DNA from: a virus
Virus record (IMG/VR): IMGVR_UViG_3300021960_000608
Coordinates: 1 to 21,495 of that record
Reading direction: 5' to 3' (one strand)
Length of the DNA: 21,495 bases
Below, in pieces: positions 1 to 21,495 of this stretch; position 1 is the first letter of the stretch; every line of letters starts with the position of its first letter. A model generated the notes under the pieces. That model was not told the DNA's origin. It worked only from the letters and a program-made list of their open reading frames with translations, and made no database searches. Made by a program: the position numbers and the translations under genes.

Positions 1-1713
1 CTTGAAAAGCAAAGAGATGCGGCTCTTAAGGTCTTTGATGATCAACTTGAGACTATTGATAAATTGGGTCAGGCTGAGGAATCTCTTATGCGTGAGAGAG
101 AGCATATTGCTAACAGAAAGAAGATGCTTGATGAAAGAGAACTCAATAGGCAAAACTATGTTAGAAATCGTGCGCTAGCAATTTATGAAGGTCGTATTGA
201 CGATGCCAGAATGCTTGATCTTGAAGAGCAGAAGAATCGAATGGATTCGGCTCAAAGTCTTACTGATCTTGAAGCTAAGAAAAACGATGAACTTCGTAAA
301 GAAAATCTTGAGTTCTTAAAAGAGCAAATTAAAGAGACTCGCAAAGAAGCAGATGATTTCTTTAAAGAGCAAGCAAAGGCTTTTAAAGAGTCAGCAAAGG
401 AAATAACTAGATTTGCTCCTCAGACTGTCGAGGACTACGAAAGACAACTTAATGAACTTAGATCTCTAGCAACTCGTTTCGCTGGGTCTAATGCTGAGGA
501 GTTTGCCACTACGTTCCAGAAAATGAGGAACAAGATTATTACTGGTATGCCTAATGATGTTGGTGGCGTATTTAGTGAAAATCTTGATGTTCTTATTGAT
601 GAGGCTAGAAGAAAGTATGGTTTGAATGATGAGAGCGATAGCATTATTGGTGCTACCGCATCAATGCTTTCTGCTGTTGGTGACACTATTGGTTCTGATA
701 TTGGTGTTTCTACTAACTGGACCGGTCTACTTGTTGGTTTAGCAAGAGAAGTCGCAATCGTTGGAACTACAACTATTTTTGATGCTATCAGAGATAGGGG
801 TCCACAGGAAATTCTACGTCAAGCGATTGAGTTTGCTGAAGAGACAATTCTCCATGCTTGGAGGGGAACTCTTGACCATATTATTTCAGAAGTAGATTAT
901 CTTGCTGGGTTTATGGACCCTGTGATTGCAGATATTCTTAAGGCTCAGTTGGCATTTGAGGCTTTGGAGCAGGCCGCTAAAGATGCAGCTGCCGCTGCTG
1001 CTAATGCTGGTGGCACTTCTGCTAGACAACCTGCACCAGCACCTGCAAAAGCACCAGCGCCTGCTCCAGCGCCTGCTCCTAAACCTTCACCTTCGGCTGC
1101 TGGTCAAGCAGTTGCTGACAGAATTTATCCTATTGAATCTGCTGTCAATCCTACAATCGCTGGATACATCACTAAGCCTAAAGTTGAGGCTGCTGAGCGA
1201 GCCGCAGCTGCCGCAGCTGCCGCCGCTGCGGCAGAAGCAGCAGCGAGAAAGGCTGCTCTTGCTGATGCCGAAAGAAGAGCAAGGCAGCAGGCTACTGTTG
1301 TCAAAAAGCCCACCCCAGCGCCAGCAGCTGCTGGTGGTCGTATGTTGATGAGGGCTTATGGTGGTTTTGTGTCGGGTCGTGGTGGAATGGTTCCTGGTTT
1401 TGGCAATCGTGGTGTTCCTGCAATGCTTCATGGTGGAGAGTATGTGTTAAACTCTAAGGCTGTTCAAAATATTGGTATGGCTGCTCTTCAGGTAATGAAT
1501 AACTTAAGGTTCTCTGCTCCTAAGGGTTACAGCGGCGGATCTGGTGGGATGACAACTGTAAATAATACGGAAAACATCAATATTTATGTTGATACATTTA
1601 TTGGTGAAGAGAAGTGGTTTGAAAGCATGATGTCTGATTACAACATGAAGGTTCAGCCTAATATTGATAAGAGAAGGGGTCGTCAAGGCAGGACAGTAAC
1701 GGCCTATGTCTGA
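1..1713 (+). CDS. Tail tape measure protein, C-terminal part (5' end outside window)
   Basis: The tape measure protein sets tail length by spanning the tail tube lumen during assembly and is ejected with the DNA. The frame is open from base 1, so the true start lies upstream and the TTG at 64 is not the start. The N-terminal visible half is charged and heptad-like (many Glu/Lys/Arg, bases 1-480), consistent with coiled coil. A hydrophobic, Gly-rich stretch follows (about 640-950), then Ala/Pro-rich linkers (1020-1110 and 1185-1340). Near the C-terminus lies the motif VPAMLHGGEYVLNSKAV (about 1413-1463), a hallmark of tape measure C-termini. The last 45 residues are a mixed beta/charged tail. 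The protein precedes small tail proteins and a large baseplate-like protein, the usual order. The family identification is strong; the exact domain borders are my estimate. Confidence 0.88.
   Translation, partial: LEKQRDAALKVFDDQLETIDKLGQAEESLMREREHIANRKKMLDERELNRQNYVRNRALAIYEGRIDDARMLDLEEQKNRMDSAQSLTDLEAKKNDELRKENLEFLKEQIKETRKEADDFFKEQAKAFKESAKEITRFAPQTVEDYERQLNELRSLATRFAGSNAEEFATTFQKMRNKIITGMPNDVGGVFSENLDVLIDEARRKYGLNDESDSIIGATASMLSAVGDTIGSDIGVSTNWTGLLVGLAREVAIVGTTTIFDAIRDRGPQEILRQAIEFAEETILHAWRGTLDHIISEVDYLAGFMDPVIADILKAQLAFEALEQAAKDAAAAAANAGGTSARQPAPAPAKAPAPAPAPAPKPSPSAAGQAVADRIYPIESAVNPTIAGYITKPKVEAAERAAAAAAAAAAAEAAARKAALADAERRARQQATVVKKPTPAPAAAGGRMLMRAYGGFVSGRGGMVPGFGNRGVPAMLHGGEYVLNSKAVQNIGMAALQVMNNLRFSAPKGYSGGSGGMTTVNNTENINIYVDTFIGEEKWFESMMSDYNMKVQPNIDKRRGRQGRTVTAYV
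1020..1340 (+). repeat. Ala/Pro low-complexity region in the tape measure gene, with a strong hairpin
   Basis: This stretch encodes alternating Ala-Pro (1030-1085) and a run of 11 Ala plus further Ala-rich helix (1201-1260). Within it, 1208-1217 and 1225-1234 form a perfect 10-bp GC-rich inverted repeat with a 7-base loop. The protein segment is probably a flexible linker followed by a helix. The hairpin may be only a by-product of GCN alanine codons. Confidence 0.7.
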
Positions 1714-1728
1714 TGTTGAGGTTTTACA

Positions 1729-2148
1729 ATGGTAGCAATTCAAAATCAGCAAACATCTTTAGCAGTCTTTGTGTCTATCAATGGAACTGAAATCACTAAT
1801 CATGGCAGGTCTGCATCAATTACAGAAGAGCTAAACGCTTCTGATGTTGAAACTTCCTCTGGTCGTCTTAGGAGATTTTATCAACCGAATAAAAAAAGTT
1901 TATCTTTAGATTTTACATATTTACCAAATACATCAGAAAAAACTGTTGATGGTCGTGTTGGTAGGAACTTTTTAGAGAATCTTGCCGTTTCGTCCCCCAG
2001 AGTTCTTGTTAGTTATAAAGATGAACCAACTAGAGCAAATAAGCAATTTTATGGTTTTATATCTTCGTACTCAGAAACTATTGTAAGAAGAGATTTACTT
2101 ACACAATGTACTTATTATGATGTACAGTTGGTTATAGAGGAAGAATAA
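1729..2148 (+). CDS. Small tail protein, paralogue of the C-terminal domain of the next gene
   Basis: 139 residues, probably beta-rich, function not recognised by name. It starts 15 bases after the tape measure stop, with GAGG at 1717-1720 as ribosome site. It aligns along nearly its whole length with residues about 222-354 of the following protein. Shared positions include ING/LDGK near the N-terminus, the run RRFYQPNKKSLSLDF against SRYYKTESPRKTFSI, LPN-TVDGRVGRNFLENLA against LPS-TVDLKFGRDKIRELA, and the ending SYSETIVRRD against SYNESLIRRD, with EE near both C-termini. Position just after the tape measure suggests a distal tail or tail-tip component. The stop overlaps the next start by one base (TAATG), implying translational coupling. 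Confidence 0.7.
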   Translation: MVAIQNQQTSLAVFVSINGTEITNHGRSASITEELNASDVETSSGRLRRFYQPNKKSLSLDFTYLPNTSEKTVDGRVGRNFLENLAVSSPRVLVSYKDEPTRANKQFYGFISSYSETIVRRDLLTQCTYYDVQLVIEEE

Positions 2149-3212
2149 TGAGCAGGTGGACTAATCCTACATATTCTTTAACACTTGATGTTACTGGTGT
2201 AAAGTTTTATGGTGGCGACGTAAACGTTGTTACCGCAGAAGCATCGCTTTCTGCTGAATGTAATGTTTCTGTCAGTGCAGACGAAAGACTGCTTGGTCGG
2301 ATTGACATTTCTGCTAATTCCAACGTAACCGTTTCTGGTACCGAGATTCTTTATGCAACTTCTAGCATTGATGCCGGTACTATTGTAGTAACTGTTGGTC
2401 TTGAAATTGCAGAGGCTGTGATTTCTGCTTCTGGCGATGTATCTGTATCAACAACAGCGTACAAGTTTGGTTATGCTAATTCTCAAGTAAGTGGAGAAGG
2501 TACAACTTCTGGAACTTCATATAAGTTTGCCTATTCAAACGCAACACCTTCTGCTGAACTTATTACAACTCCAACAGCCTACAAGTTTGCTTACTCTGAG
2601 AGCGAAATCGCTGCTGAATCTTCTGCAACTACGACTGCTCTAGAAATACTTTATGCCTCCGTACAAACTAGTGGTTTAGCAATCACTGTAACTGTCGGTA
2701 AGGAAATTCTTTATATTAATCCACAGCCCACAGGCGCAGCGACCGTTCTGTCTGTCAGCGCAGTTCGTTTCAGCGACAATATTGTTGAAGATACCGAGCA
2801 GATTCGTCCGCTACTTATACTTGATGGTAAACCTTTGACTGAACATAATAGGCAGTCTAGTATTTCTGTAGTTCATAGTTATGCTGAAAATAGGAACTGG
2901 AAGGCTTCAAGATCTAGATACTACAAAACTGAATCTCCCAGAAAGACTTTCTCTATAAGTTGGTCAAATCTACCAAGTGATAGAACTCAAACTGTAGATC
3001 TTAAGTTTGGCAGGGATAAGATTAGGGAACTAGCGAGCGACCCAGACATCCATGTTCTAAAGTTTTTAAACATGGACTCTGACGGAACTACTCCTTACAC
3101 TGAAACAGTATATAATGTTGTAGTGAGGTCTTACAATGAAAGTCTTATCAGGCGAGATGTTGATACTGATCTTTACTTGTGGGATTGTAGTCTTGAGTTG
3201 GAGGAAGTGTAA
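2148..3212 (+). CDS. Tail protein with 20-residue tandem repeats and a duplicated tail domain
   Basis: 354 residues with two visible parts. Residues 45-204 are a tandem array of eight units of exactly 20 residues, each starting with an aromatic/hydrophobic strand such as YKFAYS or EILYA and ending in Thr/Val-rich TVTVG- or TTT-like sequence. Residues about 222-354 are homologous to the whole preceding protein, so this gene probably arose by duplication of that gene plus gain of the repeat stalk. The array is rich in Ser/Thr/Ala/Val with alternating hydrophobic residues, so repeated beta strands are likely. I infer a tail-tip or stalk-like structural protein. The ATG at 2148 overlaps the previous stop and has AGAGG at 2136-2140. 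No named family is recognised. Confidence 0.72.
   Translation: MSRWTNPTYSLTLDVTGVKFYGGDVNVVTAEASLSAECNVSVSADERLLGRIDISANSNVTVSGTEILYATSSIDAGTIVVTVGLEIAEAVISASGDVSVSTTAYKFGYANSQVSGEGTTSGTSYKFAYSNATPSAELITTPTAYKFAYSESEIAAESSATTTALEILYASVQTSGLAITVTVGKEILYINPQPTGAATVLSVSAVRFSDNIVEDTEQIRPLLILDGKPLTEHNRQSSISVVHSYAENRNWKASRSRYYKTESPRKTFSISWSNLPSDRTQTVDLKFGRDKIRELASDPDIHVLKFLNMDSDGTTPYTETVYNVVVRSYNESLIRRDVDTDLYLWDCSLELEEV
2280..2759 (+). repeat. In-frame 60-bp (20-residue) tandem repeat array, eight diverged units
   Basis: The motif starts recur at protein residues 46, 66, 86, 106, 126, 146, 166 and 186 with no insertion or deletion. Motif cores in order are ERLLG, EILYA, EIAEA, KFGYA, KFAYS, KFAYS, EILYA, EILYI. 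The three central units are the most alike (YKF-x-Y). DNA identity between units is modest, so these are old or selected repeats, not recent copies. Confidence 0.75.
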
Positions 3213-6200
3213 ATGCTTACTAAAGATATTTATAACAACACTTTAACTTCAACTTTTACATCGAAGACTTCTGCTGCTTCTCAAAGATTAAAGCCTAAAG
3301 TTGTGATTGATTGGATGGATAGCAGACATCTTACAAACTTGACGGCTTCAACTACTGACGCTCATTCAAGCAACTCTCAGGGTGATTCTGGCTATTTTTT
3401 TGCCCCAAAGCAGGCAGTGAATGGTATTGAAAGGCAGTCTTACACTTGGGGGGTTGCTGGTGCCAAAGATGCTAATGGGAAGGTGATTAGAGCAGATGGC
3501 AACTGGTTTGCTATGCCATCAGACAACTCTGACAACTATGAATTTGGTTGGTGGTCGGGCACTGCGTCTACTGCCAACACTCATTCTACTTATTCTGGAT
3601 ATGAGTTTGCTTCAAATCCCACTGTATCTTTTGAATTTGATTCTCGCAGATGTAATATTGTTAGGGTTGTAACATCTGAATACTATGGTCAGATTGACAC
3701 ATATAGAGTTACTGTAAGAAGCAATGACTCTGGGGCGGCAGACCCGGTTTACACAGCCGTTGGCACAATTGCTGATGGTTCGTATTATAGGGATCATGTT
3801 ATTGCACCTGAGGCTTCAACTCAAACTATATACAGAGTCGAGATTGAAGTTATTACAACTAAGAATCCAGAAGATTTTGCAAGAATTCAGGAAGTAAATA
3901 TTTTACTTAAAGAGGATATTTCTGATTTTGTAATTGATTATTCCTCTTCTAAAATTAGGGATTTGCATCAAACAAGTTTGCCTATTGGTGGATCTAGCTC
4001 TGGCGGATTAAACTTTACTTTTGACAATGCGGGTAAAGATTTTAATATCTACGGGTCTTCCAGCACCTACGGCCCTTTAATGAAAAAAGACTTAAAAATT
4101 TATGCTACAACTGGGTGGCAAATTGTAAAGTCGCCATACGATTACATTGATAAGACCTTGCGTTCTGCACTCAATGCTTCGGACACATCTATATCAGTTG
4201 ACAATGTTGATGATCTACCAGATGGCGGGGCTGGTAATTATTTTGTAATGATTATTGAGCCAGACAGCTCCAACCAAGAATATGTTCTATGTTCAGGAAC
4301 AACTGGTACATACACAATAAATGTGGTTGAAAGAGGCTACAACAACTCAGTTGCTCGCACTCATGCAGTAGACAGTTTGATTAGATTTGAGACTTTTGAG
4401 TATCCTGCTTTTATGGAATCTTATATTGATGAATGGAGTTCATCTAGTCAGAATATGACTGTTGCTGCAAACGCTATTGATTGGACAAAGTTTATGTCTG
4501 AAAAGGTAGTCTCTAGGGGGTTCTTTTTAGATAAGACAACTGTATCTGATGCTTGCGAAAGTTTGCTCATGATGACCAACTTTCCAAAAGCAGATATTGA
4601 TAGTATAAATAGATTTGACATTTCTGCTGCAAAAGGTGAGTCAATTCTTCACTTTGATTTTAACGAAGAGACTAGAGATAGATCAAACAACACCATCACT
4701 GTTTCTGACGGGCTTCGAGGAAGATTCTTTTCAATGCCATCGGATGCTCTGAATCAAGTTAAAGATATTAAGGCTGATGCACTAGACAGGAAGTTGACAG
4801 AACTTGAAAAAGCTTTAGGGGTGACCGTTTCTATATCTCCAGACTTTGTGGGCAATTCTTCAAACATATCTAGCAACACCAGTCTTGCTGTTGATTTACA
4901 AAACTTTACTTATACCGACAATGGCGGTGAAACTGTCTCAACTTATTACAACGGTGTTTTTGATGGATTTTATATACCAATAGAAACTGGTGATCAACTT
5001 CTTTCTGTAGACATTTCTCATGGCGGAGTTAGAATCTATTTAGACGATACTTTGATTTTAAATGAGTGGAGAAACCATGTCACTAATCCCGCGACTCCAG
5101 AAACAGTTCAATCTGATTTAGTAAATTTGACTGCCGGTCGTGCTTATAAGATAAGGATTGAATTTTTCCATACTAAAGCTTTTGTTTCTGGTGAGAACTT
5201 TTCGATGGCTCTCAACTATCAACTAGACGGTGGTTCGGTTTCACCAGTTCTTGCATCAGACTGTAGAACAATTTCTGTTTTAGACAAAATCGGTTCAAGA
5301 GATGCCTCATACCAGGCTCTTACTAGTGGAAGTCCCACTCCAGATAGAAATAAGCAATCAAATTATGCTTTGTATCTTGGTGGCGGAGAAATTGGTTTAG
5401 AAGGCGGACTGGTTTCCTCTGAGCAGAACTACTCTTGTTTATTAGGATCTAATAAGTACATAAGACTTCCTTATGATTCTTCTTGGAATGTAATGAATTC
5501 TTCAAGCAATAACTATACTGGTGAATGGTCATTTGAAATGTACATAAAGCCTACTGCTGCATTTTCTGGTGATGGTGAATACTTAAGCACTTGGGCTAAC
5601 GCTTCTCCTACTGCTGGTTTTGAATTCTATTCTAATGCTGCATCTAATGGGTTTAAAGTTATCACCTCGTCAGGCACAGAGTCTGTATCATCTACAACTT
5701 CATTGTCTACTTCCGCATGGTCCCACATAGCCACGACTTTTGACGGAACAACGCTCTCGTACTACGTGAATGGCGTTTTAGAGGATTCTACGGCGTTGTC
5801 GGGAACGATAGCGGATTGGTCGGGGTCGGATGCGACATTTGGTGGTCGTGGTGCAAGTTTTACTGAATTGGTTGGCGAAACTGCACCTTCAACTATAAGA
5901 GATATCTACTTTGACGAATTTCTTATTTACAGAAAAGCGATGTCTGCTTCCGAAATTGCTGACAGGTACACAGAAGCTGTAATGCAGCCTCTGACCATTT
6001 ACCCGTTCCTTTATGGTAATGAAGCGTCAATTAGGGAAATTGCAGATCAAATAACTCTTGCCGATCTTGGTCGATTGTATCTGGATGAAGAAAATAAAGC
6101 CAGATATGAGCACTTCTATAGATTCTTTGAGTCATCTATTGATCAACATGCTAATACTCAAGTTTCTATAAATGATGACAATCATATAATATCTGCTGAT

Positions 6201-7112
6201 TATAATGTGCAATTACAAGCGAATAGGGTTGTCGTAAAGATTGCTGGGTTGTCTTCCAATTTGGTTGGAGTCCAAGGGCTGTGGCGTGCAGAAGATCCTA
6301 CAACTCTGGCTGTTGTAAATCTTGAAGAATCATTGACTGATTCAGATGTCAGTATGTATGTGTCTACAACTACTAATCCGCCTTTCTTTAAAACTGGGTA
6401 TCTTGTTATTGATGATGAAATTATTAAGTATACCAACAAGACGCCCAATTCGTTTTTGACTTTAGAGAGAGGTCAGTTTGGAACAACTGCTGCTGCTCAC
6501 ACTGCAAATACCGCTGTCAGGGAGGCAAGGTATTGGGATCTTACATATGATAAAGCTCCTGCGTATCAGGTAAAAAATCCTTTTATTACAGGTATTAGAT
6601 TTGAAGAACCAGACCGGATTGACATTTTAAAATGGGTTGCCGGTAATTATGGAGCAGAACTTATAATTGCTGCTAATGCAACGGTTGATAAGAATACAGT
6701 TGTTTTTGCTGAGGGCACGAATCCATTAACGCAAAAGGTTGCATTTACTTCTGTTGCTGGAATACCAGTTGTGCTTACAGAGCAGTCTAGTCAGATTAAA
6801 GAACAAGTTGCTGAACTTGAGGATAATATTAGACTTTATGGATTAAAAGAAGTTGTAATTGAAAACATATTTATTACAGATTTTGATCACGGCCAGAAGA
6901 TTGCAAACTTTATTATTGAGAAAATGGGTGACCCTGTACCTATTTTAACTATTTCAACCGTTCCTACGCCTCAAGTAAAAGTTGGTGATCGTATTCGTAT
7001 TACTGAACTTGATGCTTTTGATATAATTAATGGTGACTATTGGGTTCTCTCTAGGGATTACACTTTTAGCACATCACCTAGTCAAACCATGATGCTTAGG
7101 AAGGTCACATGA
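3213..7112 (+). CDS. Large baseplate/minor tail protein with discoidin-, PA14- and LamG-like domains
   Basis: 1299 residues, the largest protein here. Visible order: residues about 50-235 resemble an F5/8-type C (discoidin) beta domain. About 318-392 is a small module ending in ERGYNNSVARTHAVD. About 565-680 resembles PA14 (GGVRIYLDDTLILNEW, then LTAGRAYKIRIEFF). About 740-925 is a LamG/concanavalin-like jelly roll (WSFEMYIKP, WSHIATTFDGTTLSYYVNG, IYFDEFLIYRKAMS). About 1040-1103 repeats the small module (DDEIIKY, LERGQFGTTAAAHT). The last 150 residues (DPVPILTISTVPTPQVKVGDR) look like the C-terminal part of minor tail/hub proteins. The role is probably a tail-tip or baseplate protein that also binds cell-surface glycans. 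ATG directly follows the previous stop with GGAGG upstream. Domain calls are by eye; PA14 and LamG are the firmest. Confidence 0.75.
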   Translation: MLTKDIYNNTLTSTFTSKTSAASQRLKPKVVIDWMDSRHLTNLTASTTDAHSSNSQGDSGYFFAPKQAVNGIERQSYTWGVAGAKDANGKVIRADGNWFAMPSDNSDNYEFGWWSGTASTANTHSTYSGYEFASNPTVSFEFDSRRCNIVRVVTSEYYGQIDTYRVTVRSNDSGAADPVYTAVGTIADGSYYRDHVIAPEASTQTIYRVEIEVITTKNPEDFARIQEVNILLKEDISDFVIDYSSSKIRDLHQTSLPIGGSSSGGLNFTFDNAGKDFNIYGSSSTYGPLMKKDLKIYATTGWQIVKSPYDYIDKTLRSALNASDTSISVDNVDDLPDGGAGNYFVMIIEPDSSNQEYVLCSGTTGTYTINVVERGYNNSVARTHAVDSLIRFETFEYPAFMESYIDEWSSSSQNMTVAANAIDWTKFMSEKVVSRGFFLDKTTVSDACESLLMMTNFPKADIDSINRFDISAAKGESILHFDFNEETRDRSNNTITVSDGLRGRFFSMPSDALNQVKDIKADALDRKLTELEKALGVTVSISPDFVGNSSNISSNTSLAVDLQNFTYTDNGGETVSTYYNGVFDGFYIPIETGDQLLSVDISHGGVRIYLDDTLILNEWRNHVTNPATPETVQSDLVNLTAGRAYKIRIEFFHTKAFVSGENFSMALNYQLDGGSVSPVLASDCRTISVLDKIGSRDASYQALTSGSPTPDRNKQSNYALYLGGGEIGLEGGLVSSEQNYSCLLGSNKYIRLPYDSSWNVMNSSSNNYTGEWSFEMYIKPTAAFSGDGEYLSTWANASPTAGFEFYSNAASNGFKVITSSGTESVSSTTSLSTSAWSHIATTFDGTTLSYYVNGVLEDSTALSGTIADWSGSDATFGGRGASFTELVGETAPSTIRDIYFDEFLIYRKAMSASEIADRYTEAVMQPLTIYPFLYGNEASIREIADQITLADLGRLYLDEENKARYEHFYRFFESSIDQHANTQVSINDDNHIISADYNVQLQANRVVVKIAGLSSNLVGVQGLWRAEDPTTLAVVNLEESLTDSDVSMYVSTTTNPPFFKTGYLVIDDEIIKYTNKTPNSFLTLERGQFGTTAAAHTANTAVREARYWDLTYDKAPAYQVKNPFITGIRFEEPDRIDILKWVAGNYGAELIIAANATVDKNTVVFAEGTNPLTQKVAFTSVAGIPVVLTEQSSQIKEQVAELEDNIRLYGLKEVVIENIFITDFDHGQKIANFIIEKMGDPVPILTISTVPTPQVKVGDRIRITELDAFDIINGDYWVLSRDYTFSTSPSQTMMLRKVT

Positions 7113-9147: not shown

Positions 9148-9804
9148 ATGGCCTACGAAAACTATAGCTTTGTATCTTGGACCACGGGGACGCCTATCAC
9201 TGGTGAGCGTCTTGGTCAAATGTCCACAAATATTGAGCAAGTAAAAGACGCTACTGACGACAAACCTCAGGGTATTCTTAAGTTCAAGCAGGACTCTGCT
9301 AGCACATCTACTTTTTCTGATTATGATGAGCATGAGCTCATTAAACTTGCTGACGAATCCGGTAGCAGTGGGCCTGATAATCGTGTAAGTGTGGATGGAA
9401 ACAGATACTATAAATTGATATTAAACTTCCCAGGCTTTAGCATTAAAAATAAGGGTATGGAAGACTCTACTTACAAGATTAGAATATATTCTGGTGAGTT
9501 TGGTTCAGCAAATACTTTGATTACCACTTGGGCTGTAACTCCACACACTTTTGACTTTTACAACACTGCTGCTAATGCCAGCACAACCTCTACTACTGTA
9601 AAATCAATTGGATATGATACCGTTGTTGGAACCGGTACCTATTCTTATGTTCTTTCATCTAATGCTTCGGGTCTTACTGGAGAATCTTTTTTTGTCACGG
9701 TAGACAGAGATGCAGGATCAAATACTACTAATGCACCTGATTATGTTATTAGGGGGAACACTTCTACAATTCAGTTTTATGTTGAAGACGCTGGCGGAGT
9801 TTGA
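9148..9804 (+). CDS. Putative minor tail/fibre-associated structural protein
   Basis: 218 residues. The N-terminus (WTTGTPITGERLGQMSTNIE, then KPQGIL) matches a short leader I know from minor tail or fibre proteins of actinobacterial phages, where a W-x2-GTPIT-x3-L-x-QM pattern precedes a beta-rich body. Residues 85-215 are rich in Ser/Thr/Tyr/Val with alternating hydrophobics (YYKLILNF, YKIRIYSG, STIQFYVEDAGG), suggesting a beta-sandwich. No enzyme motif is present. It follows the fibre and membrane protein genes, fitting an accessory fibre or decoration role. The stop overlaps the next start by one base (TGATG). Function is inferred from the N-terminal pattern and context. Confidence 0.6.
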   Translation: MAYENYSFVSWTTGTPITGERLGQMSTNIEQVKDATDDKPQGILKFKQDSASTSTFSDYDEHELIKLADESGSSGPDNRVSVDGNRYYKLILNFPGFSIKNKGMEDSTYKIRIYSGEFGSANTLITTWAVTPHTFDFYNTAANASTTSTTVKSIGYDTVVGTGTYSYVLSSNASGLTGESFFVTVDRDAGSNTTNAPDYVIRGNTSTIQFYVEDAGGV

Positions 9805-10238
9805 TGTCTGACGATTCTTTGCTTGTATCACAAAGGACCGACATAAACTGGAACAAGACTGGTAAGACCGGTAAAGATAATGCTAATTATGGTACTGGTA
9901 AGTACATAGACAATAAAGGTTATGTCAAGGTTTTAAGACCTGAACACCCTAAAAGTATTAAGGGTTATATCTATGAGCACAGGGCTGTAATGGAAGAGTA
10001 TCTTGGTAGATATTTGGAAAACTGGGAGACTGTTCATCACATTAACGAAATCAAAGTTGATAATCGTTTAGATAATCTTTTTCTTTGTACAGTAAGTGAG
10101 CATAGCGCTATTCATCGTGAAGGCCGTAAGATTTCAATGAAACAGAAAGATAAGGCTAGAGCTATGGCTAAAAAGAATAAGCCTCATTTACATCGTAGAA
10201 ATCCGGCAAGAAAATTTCCTAGTGAGAAATCTCTCTAA
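9804..10238 (+). CDS. HNH homing-type endonuclease
   Basis: 144 residues. The order is GYVKVLRPEHP, GYIYEHRAVMEEYLGR, then VHHINEIKVDNRLDNLFLC, the classic HNH nuclease core found in free-standing phage homing endonucleases. Visible catalytic/metal residues are His78, His79, Asn81, Asn87 and Asn91. The C-terminal 40 residues are very basic (KKNKPHLHRRNPARK) and probably bind DNA. I place the start at ATG 9804, overlapping the previous stop, with GGAG at 9796-9799; a TTG one codon upstream is less likely. It sits between a fibre-like gene and the phosphoesterase and has no obvious link to either, as expected of a mobile nuclease gene. It is not near a terminase in this window. Confidence 0.85.
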   Translation: MSDDSLLVSQRTDINWNKTGKTGKDNANYGTGKYIDNKGYVKVLRPEHPKSIKGYIYEHRAVMEEYLGRYLENWETVHHINEIKVDNRLDNLFLCTVSEHSAIHREGRKISMKQKDKARAMAKKNKPHLHRRNPARKFPSEKSL

Positions 10239-12853: not shown

Positions 12854-13097
12854 GCTCTTTATACCGGATTCGCCCCGTCAGGACGATGTTGCCGATAGTC
12901 TGGCAAAACATTACGACGGCGACCTGTTGAGGAAGGCGGTGATGTGGTATATTGACAACAGGCCGGGGCCATTTCTCATTTTTGACTTTGCAATTGAGTC
13001 TAGGGAGATGGTTGATAAGGTCAAGTATGAAAACGAGGCTAAGTCTCGCTTTCAAGATATCGTAGCCGAAACTCGTAAGAGAATGGAAAATTCTTGA
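12792..13097 (+). CDS. Unknown protein just upstream of the replicative helicase
   Basis: 101 residues, not recognised. It is mixed charged and helical, with a conserved-looking core DSPRQDDVADSLAKHYDGDL, then WYIDNRPGPFLIFDFAIE, and a basic amphipathic C-terminal helix ending KRMENS. It overlaps the WhiB-like gene by 62 bases and ends within the helicase start. Its place directly before a DnaB-type helicase is where some phages carry a helicase loader or cofactor, but no ATPase motif is present, so this is only a suggestion. I prefer ATG 12792; TTG 12786, two codons upstream, is better spaced from GAGGT at 12776-12780. Confidence 0.6.
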   Translation: MKLTGQDLINLFKTYSEKSSKLFIPDSPRQDDVADSLAKHYDGDLLRKAVMWYIDNRPGPFLIFDFAIESREMVDKVKYENEAKSRFQDIVAETRKRMENS

Positions 13098-14314
13098 ACT
13101 ACGAAATAAAATTACTTAATTCCATTATTGACACAGGCGATTATGTAGATGCAGTCAATAGTGGTGTTGAAAATGTATTCATTGAATACAGAGATGTTTG
13201 GAACTTTATTGTAAGTCACTACGATGATCACAGCAAGGTTCCTTCTAAAGACACTGTAAAGTCACACTTCTCTGACTTTGAGTTCTTCAATACTCCTGAG
13301 CCGATGGCTTATTATGTTGATGAAGCAAGGAAAGAGTCTCTGGCTTTTCAGACTCGTCAGATTGTTGCTAAGGCTCATTCGCTTATTGCCGAGGTCGGCC
13401 CTAAAGATGCTTTATCGTATCTTATGGAGCATACGTCTAAGTTGTATAAGTTTTCCAGCAGTCTTAAAGACACAGACCTAGTTAGTGAGTGGCGTGATCG
13501 CTACGAAGACCTTAAAGAGCGTTCACTCAATCCTGATAAGCAGTATGTAGGTATCCCCAGCGGCATTGAGGTTATTGATAAAACTTTTGGTGGCTGGCAG
13601 GAGGGCGACTTTATTGTCCTTCTGGGCTGGACGGGAGTAGGTAAGTCTTTTATTGCCAGACTCTTTGCTGTAAATGCTTGGAAGGCTGGATATCGGCCTA
13701 TGATCATTTCTTTGGAAATGAATAAGAAGCAAGAGGGCCAGCGGCTAGACACTCTTCTGAATAACGGCGAGGGGTACTTTACCAATACGGATTTGATTAA
13801 AGCGAATCCTGCCATTGTTGATACCTATGAAGGTTGGGCTGAAGCTACATTCACAGGTAAGCAACCTATTTATCTAGTCACATCAGAAGGACTAGAGACT
13901 GCCGACCAAAACATGGTTCAGGCTAAGATTGATCAGTATCAGCCAGACATGGTGATTCTTGATTATCATGGACTGTTTGATGACGCATCAGGAGCAAGAA
14001 ATGAAACTGAGAAAGCTAAGAATCTTTCTAAGGCGTTCAAGCGGATTGCTGTTAAGAACAACATCCCTATTATCGACGTTGCTGCTGTTACTATGGCTGA
14101 CGGTCACGGTGATAGGCCACCTGAGTTGGAAGAAGTGGCATGGTCAAAGCAGTTAGCTTATGACGCCGACCTTGTTCTTGCCATCCATAGGGAATTCAAC
14201 TCTGACCTCTTTCAAGTTGTTTCTCGTAAAGTGAGAAGGGCAACACACTTTGGTTTCTATTTACGATGGAATCTTGAGACAGGAAAGTGGGGTGAAGAGT
14301 GGGACGTAGGGTGA
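13094..14314 (+). CDS. dnaB: DnaB-type replicative helicase
   Basis: 406 residues. The C-terminal RecA-like ATPase begins at about residue 150. Walker A is GWTGVGKS (178-185), followed by SLEMN (206-210), the DnaB-type H1a region. Walker B is MVILDY (286-291, Asp290), and a later AAVTMADGHGD/VAWSKQLAYDADL block resembles the H3/H4 region. The N-terminal 140 residues are helical and look like a reduced DnaB N-terminal domain, giving a shorter protein than bacterial DnaB (about 450-470). It unwinds DNA ahead of the polymerase encoded downstream. The start is TTG at 13094, overlapping the previous stop; the first in-frame ATG is 70 codons in. RadA/Sak4-like recombinase is an alternative but the context favours helicase. 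Confidence 0.85.
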   Translation: MNYEIKLLNSIIDTGDYVDAVNSGVENVFIEYRDVWNFIVSHYDDHSKVPSKDTVKSHFSDFEFFNTPEPMAYYVDEARKESLAFQTRQIVAKAHSLIAEVGPKDALSYLMEHTSKLYKFSSSLKDTDLVSEWRDRYEDLKERSLNPDKQYVGIPSGIEVIDKTFGGWQEGDFIVLLGWTGVGKSFIARLFAVNAWKAGYRPMIISLEMNKKQEGQRLDTLLNNGEGYFTNTDLIKANPAIVDTYEGWAEATFTGKQPIYLVTSEGLETADQNMVQAKIDQYQPDMVILDYHGLFDDASGARNETEKAKNLSKAFKRIAVKNNIPIIDVAAVTMADGHGDRPPELEEVAWSKQLAYDADLVLAIHREFNSDLFQVVSRKVRRATHFGFYLRWNLETGKWGEEWDVG

Positions 14315-14496
14315 TGGAAGACATTTTGTATACTCTAAACGGTCAAGCTGCTGATATAGAAACAATCGCTAGACTTCGACCTTGGATGGAAGACGAAGTT
14401 CGCATTAAGCAAGGTTCGTTTTCTAAGACACAACTGTACACCGACTACATTCAGGATAGAGAAATCTTTGAGTTCAAGATCGTTTTCTACAGGTAA
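14314..14496 (+). CDS. Small protein of unknown function between helicase and primase
   Basis: 60 residues, not recognised. Acidic N-terminal half (EDILYTLNGQAADIETIARL) and a mixed C-terminal half ending EIFEFKIVFYR. ATG 14314 overlaps the helicase stop by one base; GTG 14299 is an alternative start 5 codons upstream. It overlaps the primase frame by 29 bases if the primase starts at 14468. Position suggests a link to the helicase-primase pair, but nothing in the sequence shows it. Confidence 0.6.
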   Translation: MEDILYTLNGQAADIETIARLRPWMEDEVRIKQGSFSKTQLYTDYIQDREIFEFKIVFYR

Positions 14497-15397
14497 TATA
14501 GAAAAGGCTGTCCTTGATCTTTTAAATACTCAAGGCGTTGAGGTTCATAATCAGTCAGGTAGCGAAGTTGCTATCTATTGTCCGTTTCACGACAACCACA
14601 ATAGCCCTGCCTGCTACATAAACACTAAGACAGGGCTGTGGCAGTGCTTTAATCCTTCTTGCGGAAAGAAGGGGAATTTTAGGCAACTGTACAAGCACAT
14701 GACCGGTAAGACTTACGGTCGTGAATGGATATTAGATCCAGTAAATCTGCAAAGAGAGTTGGATCTGGCTTTAGTACCTAAGGGTGAAGAAGAACTGAGT
14801 CTGGACAACGTAGAGGTTGATTATGAGTCAGATGAAGTTCAGAATCTACAGTCAATTGTGGACAGGGGTTATACTCTAGAGACTTTAGAATATTTTGAAA
14901 TTGGATACTCTAAGGTTAAAGATCGTATTGTGATTCCTGTGAGGGATACTCAATACAAACTTGTCGGCCTGATAGGTCGTGCAATACATGAATGGCAGGA
15001 GCCTAGATATCTCTACAATAAGGGATTTCGTCGTGCTGACGTTTTATTCAATATTCAGAACGCTAAAGCTCACGATTCCGTTATTGTATGTGAAGGTAGT
15101 CTTGATGCCATCAAGGTAGCTCAGGCTGGTCACAAGAATGTTGTGGCAACGCTGGGGGCTAAGATATCTGCTAACCAGTCGAAGATGATTCGGAAATTTT
15201 TTGACTCTGTGGTCGTTTTTTCCGACGCAGATGACGCTGGGGCGGAGATGAGGGATGCTATAATTGATGAATGTCGTGGCAAGGAAATTTACACCGTCAG
15301 GATTCCTGATGGTCTTAAAGATCCAGGTGACATGACAGAACAACAAATTATGCAAGCCCTTGAAAGCAAGCAATTATACACAGGAGATTATAAATGA
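14468..15397 (+). CDS. DnaG-type primase
   Basis: 309 residues. Zinc-binding domain at 38-65 with Cys38, His41, Cys60 and Cys65 (CPFH, then WQCFNPSC). The TOPRIM domain at about 203-275 has CEGSLDAI (Glu209) and VFSDADDAGAEM (Asp253, Asp255), the acidic metal-binding triad of primases. RIVIPVRD and LIGRAI before it match the RNA-polymerase subdomain of DnaG. It makes RNA primers for the phage polymerase. It is shorter than bacterial DnaG (about 580-640), lacking the helicase-binding C-terminal domain, which is common in phages. The start is uncertain: TTG 14468 has only a weak ribosome site and overlaps the previous gene; the next Met is 78 codons in, after the zinc motif. Confidence 0.85.
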   Translation: MSSRSFSTGNIEKAVLDLLNTQGVEVHNQSGSEVAIYCPFHDNHNSPACYINTKTGLWQCFNPSCGKKGNFRQLYKHMTGKTYGREWILDPVNLQRELDLALVPKGEEELSLDNVEVDYESDEVQNLQSIVDRGYTLETLEYFEIGYSKVKDRIVIPVRDTQYKLVGLIGRAIHEWQEPRYLYNKGFRRADVLFNIQNAKAHDSVIVCEGSLDAIKVAQAGHKNVVATLGAKISANQSKMIRKFFDSVVVFSDADDAGAEMRDAIIDECRGKEIYTVRIPDGLKDPGDMTEQQIMQALESKQLYTGDYK

Positions 15398-16038
15398 CAT
15401 TTCAAACGATTAAATCATTAAAAGATATTGAGAAGAATATTCCACAGAAGTCCGGTGGCGGTGGGGGAGCGAAGAAGTTCTTCAACCTTCAGTCGGGCGA
15501 TACGTATAAGATTAGATTCCGTCAGGAACTTACTGAGGACTCTAAGAACTTTGATGAAGAGGTTGGAACTGGGATTATTGTTCCGGTTGTGACTTCACCA
15601 ATTAACTGGAAGTGGCGCTGTGCTTCTACTGCGCAGTCCGCCGAGCATGGCTACCGCTGTTGGGCCACTGAGCAGATTTCTCAGGATGGCCGATGGAAGC
15701 CTAAGCCCCACCTATTGATCAACATTGCTGTTGAGATTGACGGAACTTGGGAGCCTCGTATCCTTGATACGACCTTTAATCAGAGACACATTGGTCTCAT
15801 TCTTATGGAGTATGCTAAGGAATTCGGTAGCATTGTGAATCAGAACTTTAAGTACAGCCGTACTGGCTCTGGAGCGCAGGATACCAACTATAGCCTTATT
15901 CCTCTTGGTGAGAGTGAGCCTGATGCTTCAATTGCTGATCTTACGATGCATCAGTTGGACAATGTGTACATGACCCTTGGTTATGATAAGCAGAAGCAGT
16001 TCCTCACTACTGGTGAGCTAACCTCTGACGGTTGGTGA
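15394..16038 (+). CDS. Probable single-stranded DNA-binding protein
   Basis: 214 residues. After a basic N-terminus and a Gly run (GGGGG, 21-25), residues 30-130 look like an OB-type beta fold: YKIRFRQEL, WKWRC, RWKPKPHLLINIAVEIDG. Cys76, His85 and Cys89 (RCAS to YRCW) may bind zinc, as in T4 gp32-like proteins. Such proteins coat exposed single strands during replication. Place at the end of helicase-primase fits. ATG 15394 overlaps the primase stop by four bases, with AGGAG 5-6 bases upstream. The C-terminal tail is weakly acidic and ends SDGW, not the classic DDDIPF tip. The call leans on context as much as on motifs. Confidence 0.6.
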   Translation: MTFQTIKSLKDIEKNIPQKSGGGGGAKKFFNLQSGDTYKIRFRQELTEDSKNFDEEVGTGIIVPVVTSPINWKWRCASTAQSAEHGYRCWATEQISQDGRWKPKPHLLINIAVEIDGTWEPRILDTTFNQRHIGLILMEYAKEFGSIVNQNFKYSRTGSGAQDTNYSLIPLGESEPDASIADLTMHQLDNVYMTLGYDKQKQFLTTGELTSDGW

Positions 16039-16061
16039 TTCCGACAGTGCGATTGTGATTT

Positions 16062-16115
16062 TAAGGGGCGGTGCGTTCTTGCATTGTTCGCTTTGTCCAG
16101 TTGGAACGCCCCTTA
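16062..16115 (+). other. Perfect 9-bp inverted repeat in the 96-base gap after the SSB-like gene
   Basis: TAAGGGGCG at 16062-16070 is the exact reverse complement of 16107-16115, with a 36-base loop. A further TTC/GAA pairing (16076-16078 with 16104-16106) is possible with a 5-base bulge. There is no T-run, so it is not a standard terminator. It could be an operator, a structured leader, or an RNA element. TTGTCC (16093) and TATATC (16114) may form a weak promoter with 15-base spacing. Confidence 0.5.
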
Positions 16116-16134
16116 TATCACTAGAAAGGTTGTG

Positions 16135-16653
16135 ATGGCTAATATTTGTCTTGATATTGATGGCGTCGTTGCCGATTTGGTTGGCGGGATCAATAGAGAA
16201 CTAGATAAGCGTGGCTTGTCGGATTTTGATTATGCTCATTGGATTGTGGGTGTGTTTGAGGATGAGTTGACGCAGGAGATTTTTGGTGAGGCTACGTTCT
16301 GGAAGAATTTGAAGCCTTTTGTTGATTCGTGGTATCAGTTGGGTGAGTGGTGGGCTGATGGTCATGATATTTTTTTGGTGACTGCTCGTTATTCTGATGC
16401 GGCTAGGCGTGTGTTGTTGCCGTGGTTGGATGATTGGAGGTTGCAGTATTCTCAGGTGTTTTTTGCTGAGATGGGTTCTAAGTTGGAGGTTGTTCGTGAG
16501 CTTGATCCTGTGGTGATGGTTGAGGATAATCCTTATGAGGTTCGTGCGTTGAGGGAGGGTGGTGTTGATTGTTTGTTGATGCGGGCTTGGTATAATTCGG
16601 AGTTTTGGGAGGATTTTCCTTCTGTTGGTGCTTTGTCGGAGGTTGTTCTGTGA
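16135..16653 (+). CDS. 5'(3')-deoxyribonucleotidase, HAD superfamily
   Basis: 172 residues. HAD motif I is DIDGVVAD (Asp7 nucleophile, Asp9), motif II is VTAR (Thr83), motif III Lys is in SKLEVV (Lys117), and motif IV is MVEDNPYEV (Glu130, Asp131). Together with the length and the FWKNLKPF segment this fits the NT5C-type 5'-nucleotidase family, which removes phosphate from deoxynucleoside monophosphates. In a phage it could adjust nucleotide pools. I start at ATG 16135 with AGAAAGG upstream; the longer frame from TTG 16084 runs through the inverted repeat and lacks family residues. From codon 28 on, only 1 of 145 codons ends in A or C. It overlaps the methyltransferase start by four bases (GTGA). 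Confidence 0.82.
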   Translation: MANICLDIDGVVADLVGGINRELDKRGLSDFDYAHWIVGVFEDELTQEIFGEATFWKNLKPFVDSWYQLGEWWADGHDIFLVTARYSDAARRVLLPWLDDWRLQYSQVFFAEMGSKLEVVRELDPVVMVEDNPYEVRALREGGVDCLLMRAWYNSEFWEDFPSVGALSEVVL

Positions 16654-17699
16654 AGTTTGGTTCGTTGTTTGCTGGTGTTGGTGGTTTTGATTTGGGTTTT
16701 GAGGCTGCTGGTTTTGAGTGTTGCTGGCAGGTTGAGTGGGATAAGTATTGTCAGGAGGTGTTGAGGTTTAGGTGGCCTGATGTTCCGAAGTTGAAGGATG
16801 TTCGGGATGTTTCTGGTTATGATTTGGAGCCTGTGGATGTTATTACGTATGGGTTTCCTTGTCAGGATTTGAGTATTGCTGGCTATCAGGCTGGTCTTGA
16901 TGGTGATCGTTCTGGTTTGTTTTTTGAAGCTATTCGTATTATTAAGGAGATGAGAGATGCAACAGATGGACAATTCCCAAGGGTCGCTATCGCAGAGAAC
17001 GTCACAGGTTTGCTCTCTGCCGACGGAGGATCTGCGATGGGGAGATGCCTTGACACGCTGGCCGAAGCAGGGGCATTGGCAATCGAGTGGTGTGTCTTGG
17101 ACTCGCAGTGGTTCGGAGTTCCCCAGAGACGGAAGCGGGTTTTCCTTGCCTCTGTCTTCGATTCTGTTGCAGCCGGAAGATGTGCCGGAGAAATTTTCTC
17201 TCTCGCAGAAAGCGGCGCAGGGTATCCTGAACAGGTCGGAGCGGAGGGGGAAGCCGTTGCCGGAGGCGTTGAGGGTGGCTCTGGAAATGTTGGTTCGTAC
17301 CGAATGTTAGGGTTTGGTCATTATACTGATGATGATTCTGCTTCTACGTTGAAGGCTAGGGATTATAAGGATGCTACTGATTTGGTGGCGTTTGTTAAGG
17401 CTAAGAGGGCGCAGTCGTCTTCTGATACTGAGTCTTGGGTTGCTGGTGGTCCTGCTCCTACGTTGAATTGTTTTGATCAGGGTGATGTTCGTGCGACGGT
17501 GTTGGTGTCGTCGGATGTTGCTTTGCGTAGGTTGTCTCCTGTGGAGTGTGAGCGTTTGATGGGGTGGCCTGATGATCATACGAAGTTTCGGGCTGATGGT
17601 AAGTTAACTTCTGATTCTCAGAGGTTTAAGATGTGTGGTAATGGGGTTGTTGCTCCTGTTGCTAGTTGGGTTGCTAAGAGTATTGCGAGGGTTTTGTGA
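16650..17699 (+). CDS. C5-cytosine DNA methyltransferase
   Basis: 349 residues from GTG 16650, overlapping the previous stop. All key motifs are present: I FAGVGGFDLG (7-16), IV GFPCQDLS (catalytic Cys71), VI ENV (116-118), VIII QRRKRVF (159-165), IX RRLSPVECERLMGW (293-306) and X CGNGV (329-333). It moves a methyl group from S-adenosylmethionine to carbon 5 of cytosine. The target-recognition region lies between motifs VIII and IX, about 170-290, and its sequence specificity cannot be read. No cognate restriction nuclease lies beside it, so protecting phage DNA from host restriction is the likely role. Codons 102-220 differ sharply in codon use from both flanks, suggesting a mosaic gene. The frame is unbroken throughout. 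Confidence 0.92.
   Translation: MKFGSLFAGVGGFDLGFEAAGFECCWQVEWDKYCQEVLRFRWPDVPKLKDVRDVSGYDLEPVDVITYGFPCQDLSIAGYQAGLDGDRSGLFFEAIRIIKEMRDATDGQFPRVAIAENVTGLLSADGGSAMGRCLDTLAEAGALAIEWCVLDSQWFGVPQRRKRVFLASVFDSVAAGRCAGEIFSLAESGAGYPEQVGAEGEAVAGGVEGGSGNVGSYRMLGFGHYTDDDSASTLKARDYKDATDLVAFVKAKRAQSSSDTESWVAGGPAPTLNCFDQGDVRATVLVSSDVALRRLSPVECERLMGWPDDHTKFRADGKLTSDSQRFKMCGNGVVAPVASWVAKSIARVL
16953..17309 (+). other. Mosaic segment inside the methyltransferase gene
   Basis: 64 of 119 codons end in A or C, against 4 of 230 in the two flanks of the same gene. Both edges are abrupt. Bases 17101-17160 are A8 C17 G18 T17. The segment covers motifs VI and VIII and the first part of the target-recognition region. 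I saw no flanking repeats. Confidence 0.7.
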
Positions 17700-20600
17700 C
17701 GGATTTTGTTCATTTGCATTGTCATAGCGAGTATTCGCTTTTGGATGGTATGTCTCGTCCTGAGGATATTGCTCGTATTGCGTCGTCTAATGGCCAGTTT
17801 GCGGCGGCTATTACTGATCATGGGACGATGGGGGGTGTGTTGAAGTTTCAGGATGCTTGTGATGCGTCTGGTGTGCGTCCGTTGTTTGGTATTGAGGCGT
17901 ATTTTGTGCCGTCTATTGAGTCGGATTCTGATTCTAAGTATGAGCGGTTTCATTTGATTTTGCTGGCGAAGAATAATGCTGGTTTGCAGAAGTTGTTTAA
18001 GGCGAATCAGGTGGGCTGGAAGGATAACTTTTATTATAAGCCTCGTATGGATTTTGCTTTGCTGGAAGAGCTTGTTGATGGCGATATTGTGGCTTTGTCT
18101 GGTTGTATGGGTGGTGCGATTTCTAAGGCGATTGAGCGTGGTGATGATGCTGAGGCGGAGCGTTTGTCTGAGCGGTTTATTAACATTTTTGGTGACGACT
18201 TCTATTATGAGGTGCAAGCCTGGAATCCTGTGTCGTTGAATGAGAAGTTGATTGATCTTGCCGGTTCGTTCGGTAAGAAGGTTGTTGCTACTGCTGATTG
18301 CCATTTCCCTTCTGCTCATGATGCTCATGATGAGGAAGTTTTGTTGATGGTTTCTCAGTATCCGTCGTTGAATGCTGGTCAGGTTCGTCATGCTAAGGAG
18401 AACCTGTCTGGTGGTGGTACTGTGACGGATAAGATGAACAGGATGTATCCTGACAGGTTTTTGCGGTTTGATGAGATTAAGCCGTATGTTGCTCCTGCCG
18501 ACGAAGTATTGTCTTGGTTTTCGGATAAAGGTTTTAATAATCCTGAGTACCTTGAAAATACGGTTGAGGTTGCTGATAAGTGTTCGGCTCGTATTGAGAA
18601 GCGCAAGAATTTGTTGCCGAAGTATATTAAGGCTTTGGATTCTGATGATTATCTTCGTGAGATATGCGAGTTTGCTCTGTCAGAGAAGGGGTTGGATGAT
18701 GATGTGTATCGTGAGCGTCTTGCTTCTGAGTTGGAGATTATTAAGGGGCTTGGTTTCTCTGACTATTTCTTGATGGTTTGGGATTTGGTTAAGTGGGCTG
18801 ACGCTAATGATGTTGGTCGTGGTACTGGTCGTGGTTCGGTCGGTGGTAGCTTGATCGCTTTCGTCTTAGATATTTCTAAGGTTGACCCCATCAAGTACAA
18901 TCTGTTGTTTGCTCGCTTCATTAACCCTGATCGTAATGACTATCCTGATATTGACTTGGACTTTGAGGATAAGCAGCGTGATCGTATTAAGCAGTATCTT
19001 GCTGAGCGGTGGGGTGAGGATAATGTTGCGGCTATTGCGACTTATGGTGTGTTTAAGCCGAAGTCTGTGATTAAAGATGTTGCCCGTGTCTTTCAGGTTC
19101 CTTTTGATGAGACGAATAGTGTGACTCCGTTCTTTGAGACGTTGGAAGAGTTGCAGGCTACTGATAAGGGTAAGACGTTTATTAAGAAGTATCCTGAGGT
19201 GTTGCCGGTTGCTCAGAAGTTGGAGGGCCGTATTCGTAATACTGGTATTCATGCGGCTGGTATGGTGGTGTCTTCGGTTCCTTTGACTGAGATTTGTCCT
19301 GTGGAGACTCGTAAAGGCACTACTGGTGAGGGTCGTGCTCCTGTCACTTCTTTTGATATGGAGGACGCTGAGGCGGTCGGTTTGATCAAGGTTGATATTC
19401 TTGGTTTGAAGACTGTTTCTGTGATTAAGGATTGTATTGCTAAGATTAAGGAGATTCATGGTGTTGATGTTACTGAAGCATCGCTGGGTCTTGATGATCC
19501 AAAGGTATTCACGAATTTCAATGAGGGCAACACTGTTGGTGTGTTTCAAGCTGATGCTGCTGCTTATAGGAACCTTATTGAGCGTATGGGGATTGATGAT
19601 TTTAATGATCTGGTTGTTTCTAATGCGCTAGTTAGACCAGGGGCTTTGCTTTCTCAGGGCCAGACTTATATTGACTGTAAGAAGGGCGAGGCTACACCTA
19701 AGTATCCTCATGAGGTTGTAAAAGATATTCTTGAAGATACTTACGGCACAGTTATTTTTCAGGAGCAGTTGATGCAGATGGCTGTTGTGCTAGCAGGTTT
19801 CTCCTGGTCTGAGGCTGACAAGCTTCGTAAGATTATTGGTAAGAAGCGTGATGCGGCTGGGTTTGATGAGTACAAGGAGAAGTTCTGTAACAACGAGTAT
19901 TTGACTCGTAAGCAGTCTGAGAAGATTTGGGCTGACTTTGAACTTGCGGCTTTGTATATGTTTAACAAGTCGCACGCTGTCGCTTACTCGATGTTGTCGT
20001 ACCAGACTATGTGGTTGAAAATTAACTACCCAAAGGAATTTGTGTGGTCAATGCTTTACAACGAGTCTGAGAAAGGCAAGATTACTGCTTATCTTATGGA
20101 GGCAAGCCGTCTTGGTATCGCTGTTCTGCCACCAGATGTAAACCTATCAGATGAGTCTTTCTCTATTGATGAAGATGGTATTCGATTTGGTTTAAGAAAC
20201 GTTTTGAGCTGCGGAAATACAGCCATTGAGGAAATATTTAAGCATCGGCCATTTGGTTCTTTTGATGAGTTTACTAACAAATGTAGTAAGCGTCATGTTA
20301 AGGCTCCGCTTAGGGAGAACTTGGATAAGGTGGGTGCTTTTGCAAGTATGGATTACGAGTCTGCTTACGATCATGAGCGGTACTATCTCCCAATTCTAGG
20401 GTTTGCTATCGGTATGGGTTCATCGTCTAATGAGATGGATGAGGTGGTAGAGCCGATTGAGGGCTTCCATGAGATTTACTCAGAACTGCGTCTGGTGAAG
20501 GCTGTGGTCCGTTCTACGAAGAAGACGCCCAAATACCTCAGGGTAGAAATAGAAGATCAGACTGCCTCTACGACTGTGTTTTGTGACAGGAACTCTGAGA

Positions 20601-21076: not shown

Positions 21077-21495
21077 TTCTTTCAGGATCACTAACAATTA
21101 CGGTAGCATTGACTACTATACAAACGATCAGGAAATGGTGAAGCAAATCCTGCCCAACCTTTTTTTTGAACAGCAATACGTTGAAGAGTGGTTGATTCCA
21201 CATATTCAAAATTCAACTGTTGCTTTGGATATTGGCGCTCATTGTGGCTCTCACACCTTGATGTATAAGAAGATTAAACCTGACTTGATTGTTTACGCTT
21301 TTGAACCACAATCTATGATGCACGACTTGTTGTGTAAAAATGTTGTGATGAATCAACTTGATAATGTATGGTGCTTTAACAAAGCTGTAGGCAACATCAA
21401 TGGTGAGGTTGAGATGAATGACTCTGTTGCTGATGGTCACAATCCGACAGAGAGAATTCAGTATGGAACCAAAGATCTTTACAATCTTGCTGGTT
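21066..21495 (+). CDS. FkbM-family methyltransferase, N-terminal part (3' end outside window)
   Basis: 143 codons are visible before the window ends. The S-adenosylmethionine-binding motif I is ALDIGAHCGSHTLM (around residues 53-66), followed by VYAFEPQSMMHDLLCKN and VMNQLDNV, the FEP-x-N/L pattern typical of FkbM-type methyltransferases. These usually methylate oxygen atoms on sugars or small molecules. The start is inferred as GTG 21066, overlapping the polymerase end by 11 bases; the frame opens after a stop at 21057-21059. In a phage it may modify a glycan on the virion or host surface, or nucleic acid-linked sugar. The substrate is unknown and the missing C-terminus could change the call. 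Confidence 0.78.
   Translation, partial: MSVDSFRITNNYGSIDYYTNDQEMVKQILPNLFFEQQYVEEWLIPHIQNSTVALDIGAHCGSHTLMYKKIKPDLIVYAFEPQSMMHDLLCKNVVMNQLDNVWCFNKAVGNINGEVEMNDSVADGHNPTERIQYGTKDLYNLAG

Follow-up and report, generated by a model that had tools for sequence, protein, structure and literature searches.

A second copy of a small tail-ring protein is encoded in the viral DNA analysed here (21,495 nucleotides, called the window throughout). It probably bears a rigid arm at the tip of the tail, and evolution would lengthen or shorten this arm by steps of constant size. The features on which this reading rests are the following:

1-1713, plus strand: C-terminal part of the tape measure protein, assigned by its position and its long coiled, Ala/Pro-rich sequence; the window begins inside the gene
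1729-2148, plus strand: repeat-free tube-fold protein of 139 amino acids, paralogous to the C-terminal domain of the repeat protein
2148-3212, plus strand: repeat-bearing gene, 354 amino acids
2160-2219, plus strand: conserved N-terminal cap, residues 5-24 (TNPTYSLTLDVTGVKFYGGD), a conserved anchor in relatives with differing unit numbers
2220-2759, plus strand: nine 20-residue units, residues 25-204, 60 nucleotides each, starting at 2220, 2280, 2340, 2400, 2460, 2520, 2580, 2640 and 2700
2760-2819, plus strand: transitional tenth unit, residues 205-224, in phase with the other units and running into the tube-like domain
2808-3209, plus strand: predicted tail-tube-like C-terminal domain, residues 221-354 (the last ~135), delimited by the AF2 block pLDDT and fold matches
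3213-7112, plus strand: tip/hub-like protein of 1299 amino acids, the central part of which contains PA14 and laminin-G-like domains

The ATG of the repeat gene overlaps the stop codon of the gene at 1729-2148. A previous sequence-only reading had described eight exact 20-residue repeats at 2280-2759. Their spacing is indeed exactly 20 residues over residues 45-204, all eight units are present and the proposed array boundaries coincide exactly with unit boundaries, but the word exact applies to the period only: the units of the window are strongly divergent, with a mean pairwise identity of 24% (range 5-55%). Furthermore, a ninth unit directly in front (2220-2279, residues 25-44) had been missed, as had the transitional tenth one. 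The autocorrelation of the sequence peaks at a lag of 20 with 0.74, followed by 0.26 at lag 40 (BLOSUM62, residues 1-222); 1000 shuffled controls did not exceed 0.11 at any lag between 8 and 44. A scan with a unit scoring matrix also found all nine units spaced exactly 20 residues apart. As units of the window itself had served as seeds for this matrix, the autocorrelation is the independent test of periodicity. Tandem Repeats Finder detected no DNA-level tandem array at the repeat region of the window, which rules out recent slippage there.

From 357 units of 36 distinct proteins a consensus of approximately T-[KE]-I-A-[YF]-A-S-S-S-[IL]-S-x-x-S-x-[VL]-x-[TV]-x-[AG] was obtained, and conservation inside the 20-residue unit is position-specific. 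The composition of the array is rich in S, T, A and V. The earlier reading had assigned to each unit an aromatic strand (YKFAYS/EILYA) and a Thr/Val-rich strand. Two strands per unit are present in the low-confidence structural model described below; the YKFAYS/EILYA motif can be recognised clearly in some of the window's nine units only.

As previously supposed, the array precedes a tail domain within one fused protein. Residues 221-354 form a tail-tube-like domain according to the predicted fold. The monomer AF2 model of this part reached a block pLDDT of 58-92 and gave 11 PDB matches at E <= 0.001, comprising tail-tube and distal-tail proteins. The Z-score was 9.9 for a baseplate chain of 80alpha and 9.1 for the SPP1 tube as well as for a tail-tip chain of lambda, and a 131-aa protein of the Streptomyces phage Yaboi was matched with a TMt of 0.80. 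The repeat protein ends at the tube-like domain, with nothing after it. No Pfam match to a galectin domain, the peripheral domain of classical Dit proteins, was found in the repeat protein; lambda gpM, too, is not known to have one. The 139-aa protein encoded directly upstream is 28% identical to the repeat protein over residues 220-353 of the latter (E 6.5e-10) and matches phrog_1194 (E 8e-4), so the window carries the tube-fold protein twice, once plain and once with the repeats.

Tube-like domains of this kind were matched in 37 cultured phage records, 35 from Streptomyces and 2 from Rhodococcus phages. In the two that were inspected, TunaTartare and Trina, the homolog is a single protein without repeats, encoded directly after the tape measure gene and before that of a large minor tail protein. 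These small proteins of Streptomyces phages (Stanwilliamsviridae) and the Rhodococcus phage Trina, for example TunaTartare gp39, thus share a homologous domain in the same position, but with 133-137 amino acids, in single copy and repeat-free they differ from the pair found in the window.

In the window the tape measure gene is followed by those of the plain tube-fold protein, its repeat-bearing paralog and the 1299-aa tip protein, an order that is found repeatedly on contigs of uncultured phages. PHROG matches of the tape measure were weak only. Its C-terminus contains an Ala/Pro-rich low-complexity stretch (1000-1330), where DNA matches to unrelated phages occur. The 1299-aa protein is matched by PF13385 (E 2.9e-16) and PF07691 (E 1.2e-12), and a weak, partly colinear similarity connects it with the protein encoded at the corresponding place in TunaTartare (E 1e-4). 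It had no match at E 1e-5 in 50,697 phage records, and therefore no cultured member of the group was found. The pair of tube-fold genes occupies the position typical of a Dit-type gene, with the repeat gene second, not first, after the tape measure. Over the ~4 kb that precede the tape measure gene in two relatives, a major tail protein is encoded in both and a head-tail adaptor in one, and no sheath-sized ORF was found in this region. These upstream genes are consistent with a long non-contractile tail. Gene order by itself would place the repeat protein at the tail tip.

A search with the tip protein yielded 65 virus contig loci. Eight were dropped as their tip match did not start at residue 1, and in 51 of the 57 loci used a repeat gene of >= 250 aa lies directly upstream of the tip gene; the remaining six are cut by the contig end (two without an upstream ORF, four with a cut ORF). 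It was through this search that the variation in unit number first surfaced. A profile search gave 209 relatives, of which 80 were kept, so the frequencies of unit numbers are not a census, and several loci are duplicates in which one contig has two ids (flank 5000 and 10000). Altogether 74 distinct repeat proteins were collected. The plain paralog is encoded immediately upstream in 65 of the 67 that have at least 600 nt of upstream sequence, and the units are confined to ORFs with the tube domain (181/181). One locus (L003) encodes the same protein as the window and another (L004) a protein with 82% identity, both with an equal unit number. Match spans of 1433-1442 nt, which might have indicated extra repeats, turned out in the alignment to include the upstream paralog. 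Seven stretches with the repeat pattern were found in cellular genomes, none of them confirmed as a relative. With tblastn the window array gave no match in cultured phages, a search in which low-complexity filtering may miss distant arrays, and the array of the relative L054 matched two Gordonia phage records at E 10. Among the open-licence articles listed in a literature search, none dealt with the repeat protein.

For the array, AF2 was run as a monomer with an alignment of 57 in-register arrays. The resulting model has regular strands, two per unit and joined by a Gly/Ser/Asn-rich turn, but a mean pLDDT of only 48. With an alignment of mixed unit numbers the array block had a pLDDT of ~28-46. 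Foldseek found nothing for the array model at E <= 0.001 (best 0.58). The top VIA-align rows were parallel beta-helices, namely 3lyc (Z 13.6, 178 aligned, 4.2 A), 3p4g (12.9), 4opw (12.9) and 3ljy (12.2), where a Z under ~13 may reflect only a common arrangement of repeats. Independently of the model, the array sequence profile was compared to all PDB chains at E <= 10, and the only matches, both weak, were the putative adhesins 4opw (0.093) and 3ljy (0.72), which we take to be of the DUF2807 type. These two and MpAFP (3p4g) are beta-solenoids with a coil arrangement similar to that of the low-confidence array model; they differ in being non-phage proteins without a tube domain and in lacking significant homology.

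The earlier remark that the repeat belongs to no recognised family agrees with our searches: Pfam, PHROGs and NCBIfam gave no family above the cut-off for the array. DUF2807 (PF10988) stayed below its cut-off, with two of the 57 arrays at E <= 1 (best 0.008), and was not among the matches listed for the window sequence. The filamentous haemagglutinin repeat (Fil_haemagg, PF05594) shows a weak profile likeness to residues 41-101 of the window protein, below the cut-off (12.5 bits vs 21.5, E 0.26). When scanned singly, the 57 arrays gave weak matches to 48 Pfam families, most of them unrelated, with Fil_haemagg in three members.

AF2 produces confident but unrealistic solenoids for perfect repeats, and for diverged natural repeat families different methods agreed, as described in PMC11795689. 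Unlike perfect repeats, the units of our array are diverged, yet the confidence of AF2 is low. The two strands per unit, the adhesin matches of the profile and the beta-helix rows make a parallel beta-solenoid, already suggested from the sequence, our best guess for the fold of the array, tempered by its pLDDT. A rather unlikely alternative is an intertwined oligomeric beta shaft (a triple beta-spiral or beta-prism, as in fibre shafts) with strands pairing between chains. The low confidence of the monomer model despite an in-register alignment is what would be seen if the fold needed partner chains, two strands per unit with a Gly/Ser/Asn-rich turn would suit such a shaft as well, and tip proteins are often trimeric. 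Against this, the class of tube-like domains normally builds a six-fold ring, the PDB search with the sequence profile returned putative adhesins and not shafts, and the strict period of 20 leaves no variable-length loop in the unit.

Array length was determined as the distance from the N-terminal cap to the tube domain, which was obtained for 63 of the 74 distinct proteins (60 automatically, 3 added by hand); the other 11 were truncated, carried a double array or had an unmatched anchor. In 45 of the 63 this distance was 198-202 residues, and in the other 18 it was 122, 141, 179, 280, 286, 297, 380, 401, 445 or 583 residues. This corresponds to unit numbers of ~6, 7, 9, 10 (the commonest), 14, 15, 19, 20, 22 and 29. 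The best period of the distances was 20.0 (12 to 39.5 scanned, one value per class), and an equal concentration arose at random in 13 of 10,000 sets. Small offsets of the distances match spacings of 21 or 43 residues inside some arrays. Array length is thus quantised: a comparison of unit number in relatives had been recommended at the outset, and the number varies in whole 20-residue steps.

These data also bear on a further possibility, a Ser/Thr/Ala-rich low-complexity linker without defined fold in which the period is a by-product of duplication. Such a linker would agree with the low pLDDT and the S/T/A/V-rich composition of the array, but it would tolerate indels of any length. The strict spacing of 20 residues is kept across diverged units and relatives, and the position-specific conservation in the unit and the regular strands of the model likewise speak against it, so that we regard a linker as very improbable.

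A tree of the tube domain requires at least 13 changes of unit number. The clade of the window (6 rows, support 100/97) alone includes proteins with 10, 14 and 19 units. Eleven unit-number labels of the tree were set by hand; one, left blank, was not used, and the double-array relative L085 was marked 99. In this relative (2808-5927, 1040 aa) two 20-residue arrays follow each other in series, each with its own cap. Further towards its N-terminus L085 has a short repeat rich in Arg, Thr, Ser and Gly (RTAS.SGTGTQSA type) and another domain. In L054 (3968-5326), blocks of 150 nt with 60-81% identity reappear at intervals of 300 nt (five units); from this 300-nt super-repeat it follows that multi-unit blocks were duplicated in the past.

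A function of the array as a ruler of tail length was considered and is not supported. Tape-measure ORF homologs range from 1798 to 2265 aa, stop to stop, at the 16 loci with a complete ORF. The lengths are 1870-2238 aa with 19 units, 1883-1940 with 10, 1798 with 9, 2265 with 14 and 2111 with 15. At these 16 loci the length of the tape measure hence does not strictly follow the unit number, and the independent points are not numerous enough to discount a weak trend.

In a unit-by-unit comparison of the window protein with its relative L019, the cap is orthologous and so are the last three units (15, 17 and 14 of 20 residues identical), while most middle units were gained, lost or can no longer be recognised. 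In 180 pairwise comparisons of 10-unit proteins, conservation was highest in the junction unit (0.71) and dropped to 0.41-0.43 in middle units, although the sixth and seventh units counted from the C-terminal end were also fairly conserved (0.55 and 0.53). In all 18 pairs listed, which compare the first member of each group with the others only, the array has a higher dN than the tube domain, by up to ~10-fold. The dN/dS of the array is ~0.13-0.44 in the same 18 pairs, rough values given that several dS exceed 1. The array therefore is a selected protein part, and its amino-acid change is fast yet constrained.

Fast change, with the middle units the least conserved, might also be expected if the array were a receptor- or glycan-binding surface, to which coils add area and whose change tracks the host surface. 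Parallel beta-helices serve as adhesins and tailspikes, in agreement with the fold rows. Decorated distal tail proteins bind host saccharides, according to PMC7291167. Still, no catalytic or carbohydrate-binding family exceeded its cut-off (for CBM families this covers the window protein and six relatives), a dN/dS below 0.5 gives no sign of positive selection, and the adjoining 1299-aa protein already has PA14 and laminin-G-like domains. We consider a binding surface improbable.

With moderate confidence, we interpret the repeat protein as a distal-tail-ring protein that originated by duplication and has solenoid arms, in which the unit number sets the arm length. The small tube-fold protein after the tape measure would have been duplicated to give a second distal-tail-ring protein. 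Gene order and fold suggest that its C-terminal domain is probably part of a ring at the far end of a long tail, with the plain paralog on one side and the 1299-aa tip protein on the other. The cap and the repeats would fold as a parallel beta-solenoid with one unit per coil, resulting in a stiff arm presumably formed by one chain each. The rise of a beta-solenoid coil is ~0.5 nm. Accordingly sized, the arm would grow by ~0.5 nm per unit and measure ~5 nm in the window protein and ~14 nm in the longest single-array relatives. It may act as a spacer or as a presenter, whether for components of the tip or in the direction of the cell surface. A farther-reaching version is proposed only tentatively: the ring-protein copy could have turned into an adjustable mechanical part with capped beta-solenoid arms that project from the ring at the tail tip and change by whole coils (~6-29 units) between an invariant cap and junction, so that reach would be a modular, evolvable parameter of host contact. 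The two capped arrays of L085 would be a further case of this.

In the so-called evolved Dit, carbohydrate-binding modules are inserted in distal tail proteins, as PMC7291167 reports. Both cases concern a distal-tail protein, a probable one here, with an accessory surface module, encoded between tape measure and tip. They differ in that the evolved Dit has a globular CBM in a loop of the galectin domain, whereas an N-terminal array of variable unit number is found here; moreover the array sits on a second, paralogous copy, and binding is only hypothetical in our case. Decorated distal tail proteins as such are already known, and a paralog with a variable-number repeat array would extend them by a further variety. 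If our reading is true, it adds a kind of decoration other than CBMs to the module of tape measure, distal tail and tip. Arrays between two fixed anchors offer a natural experiment on the tuning of tail-tip reach, as the same ring domain comes with anything from ~6 to 29 units and, in the neighbouring paralog, with no repeats at all. Should the arms be solenoids, unit number could be related to the host envelope or the architecture of the tip.

Downstream of the tail genes, an HNH endonuclease gene (9801-10238) overlaps the end of a gene encoding 218 amino acids. A replication block at 13094-21076 comprises a DnaB-like helicase, a primase, a single-strand binding protein, a DNA methyltransferase and a DNA polymerase, the latter matching phrog_405 with E 1.4e-300. 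At 21066-21495 lies the start of a gene cut by the end of the window, which appears methyltransferase-like by eye (DIGAHCGSHTLMY).
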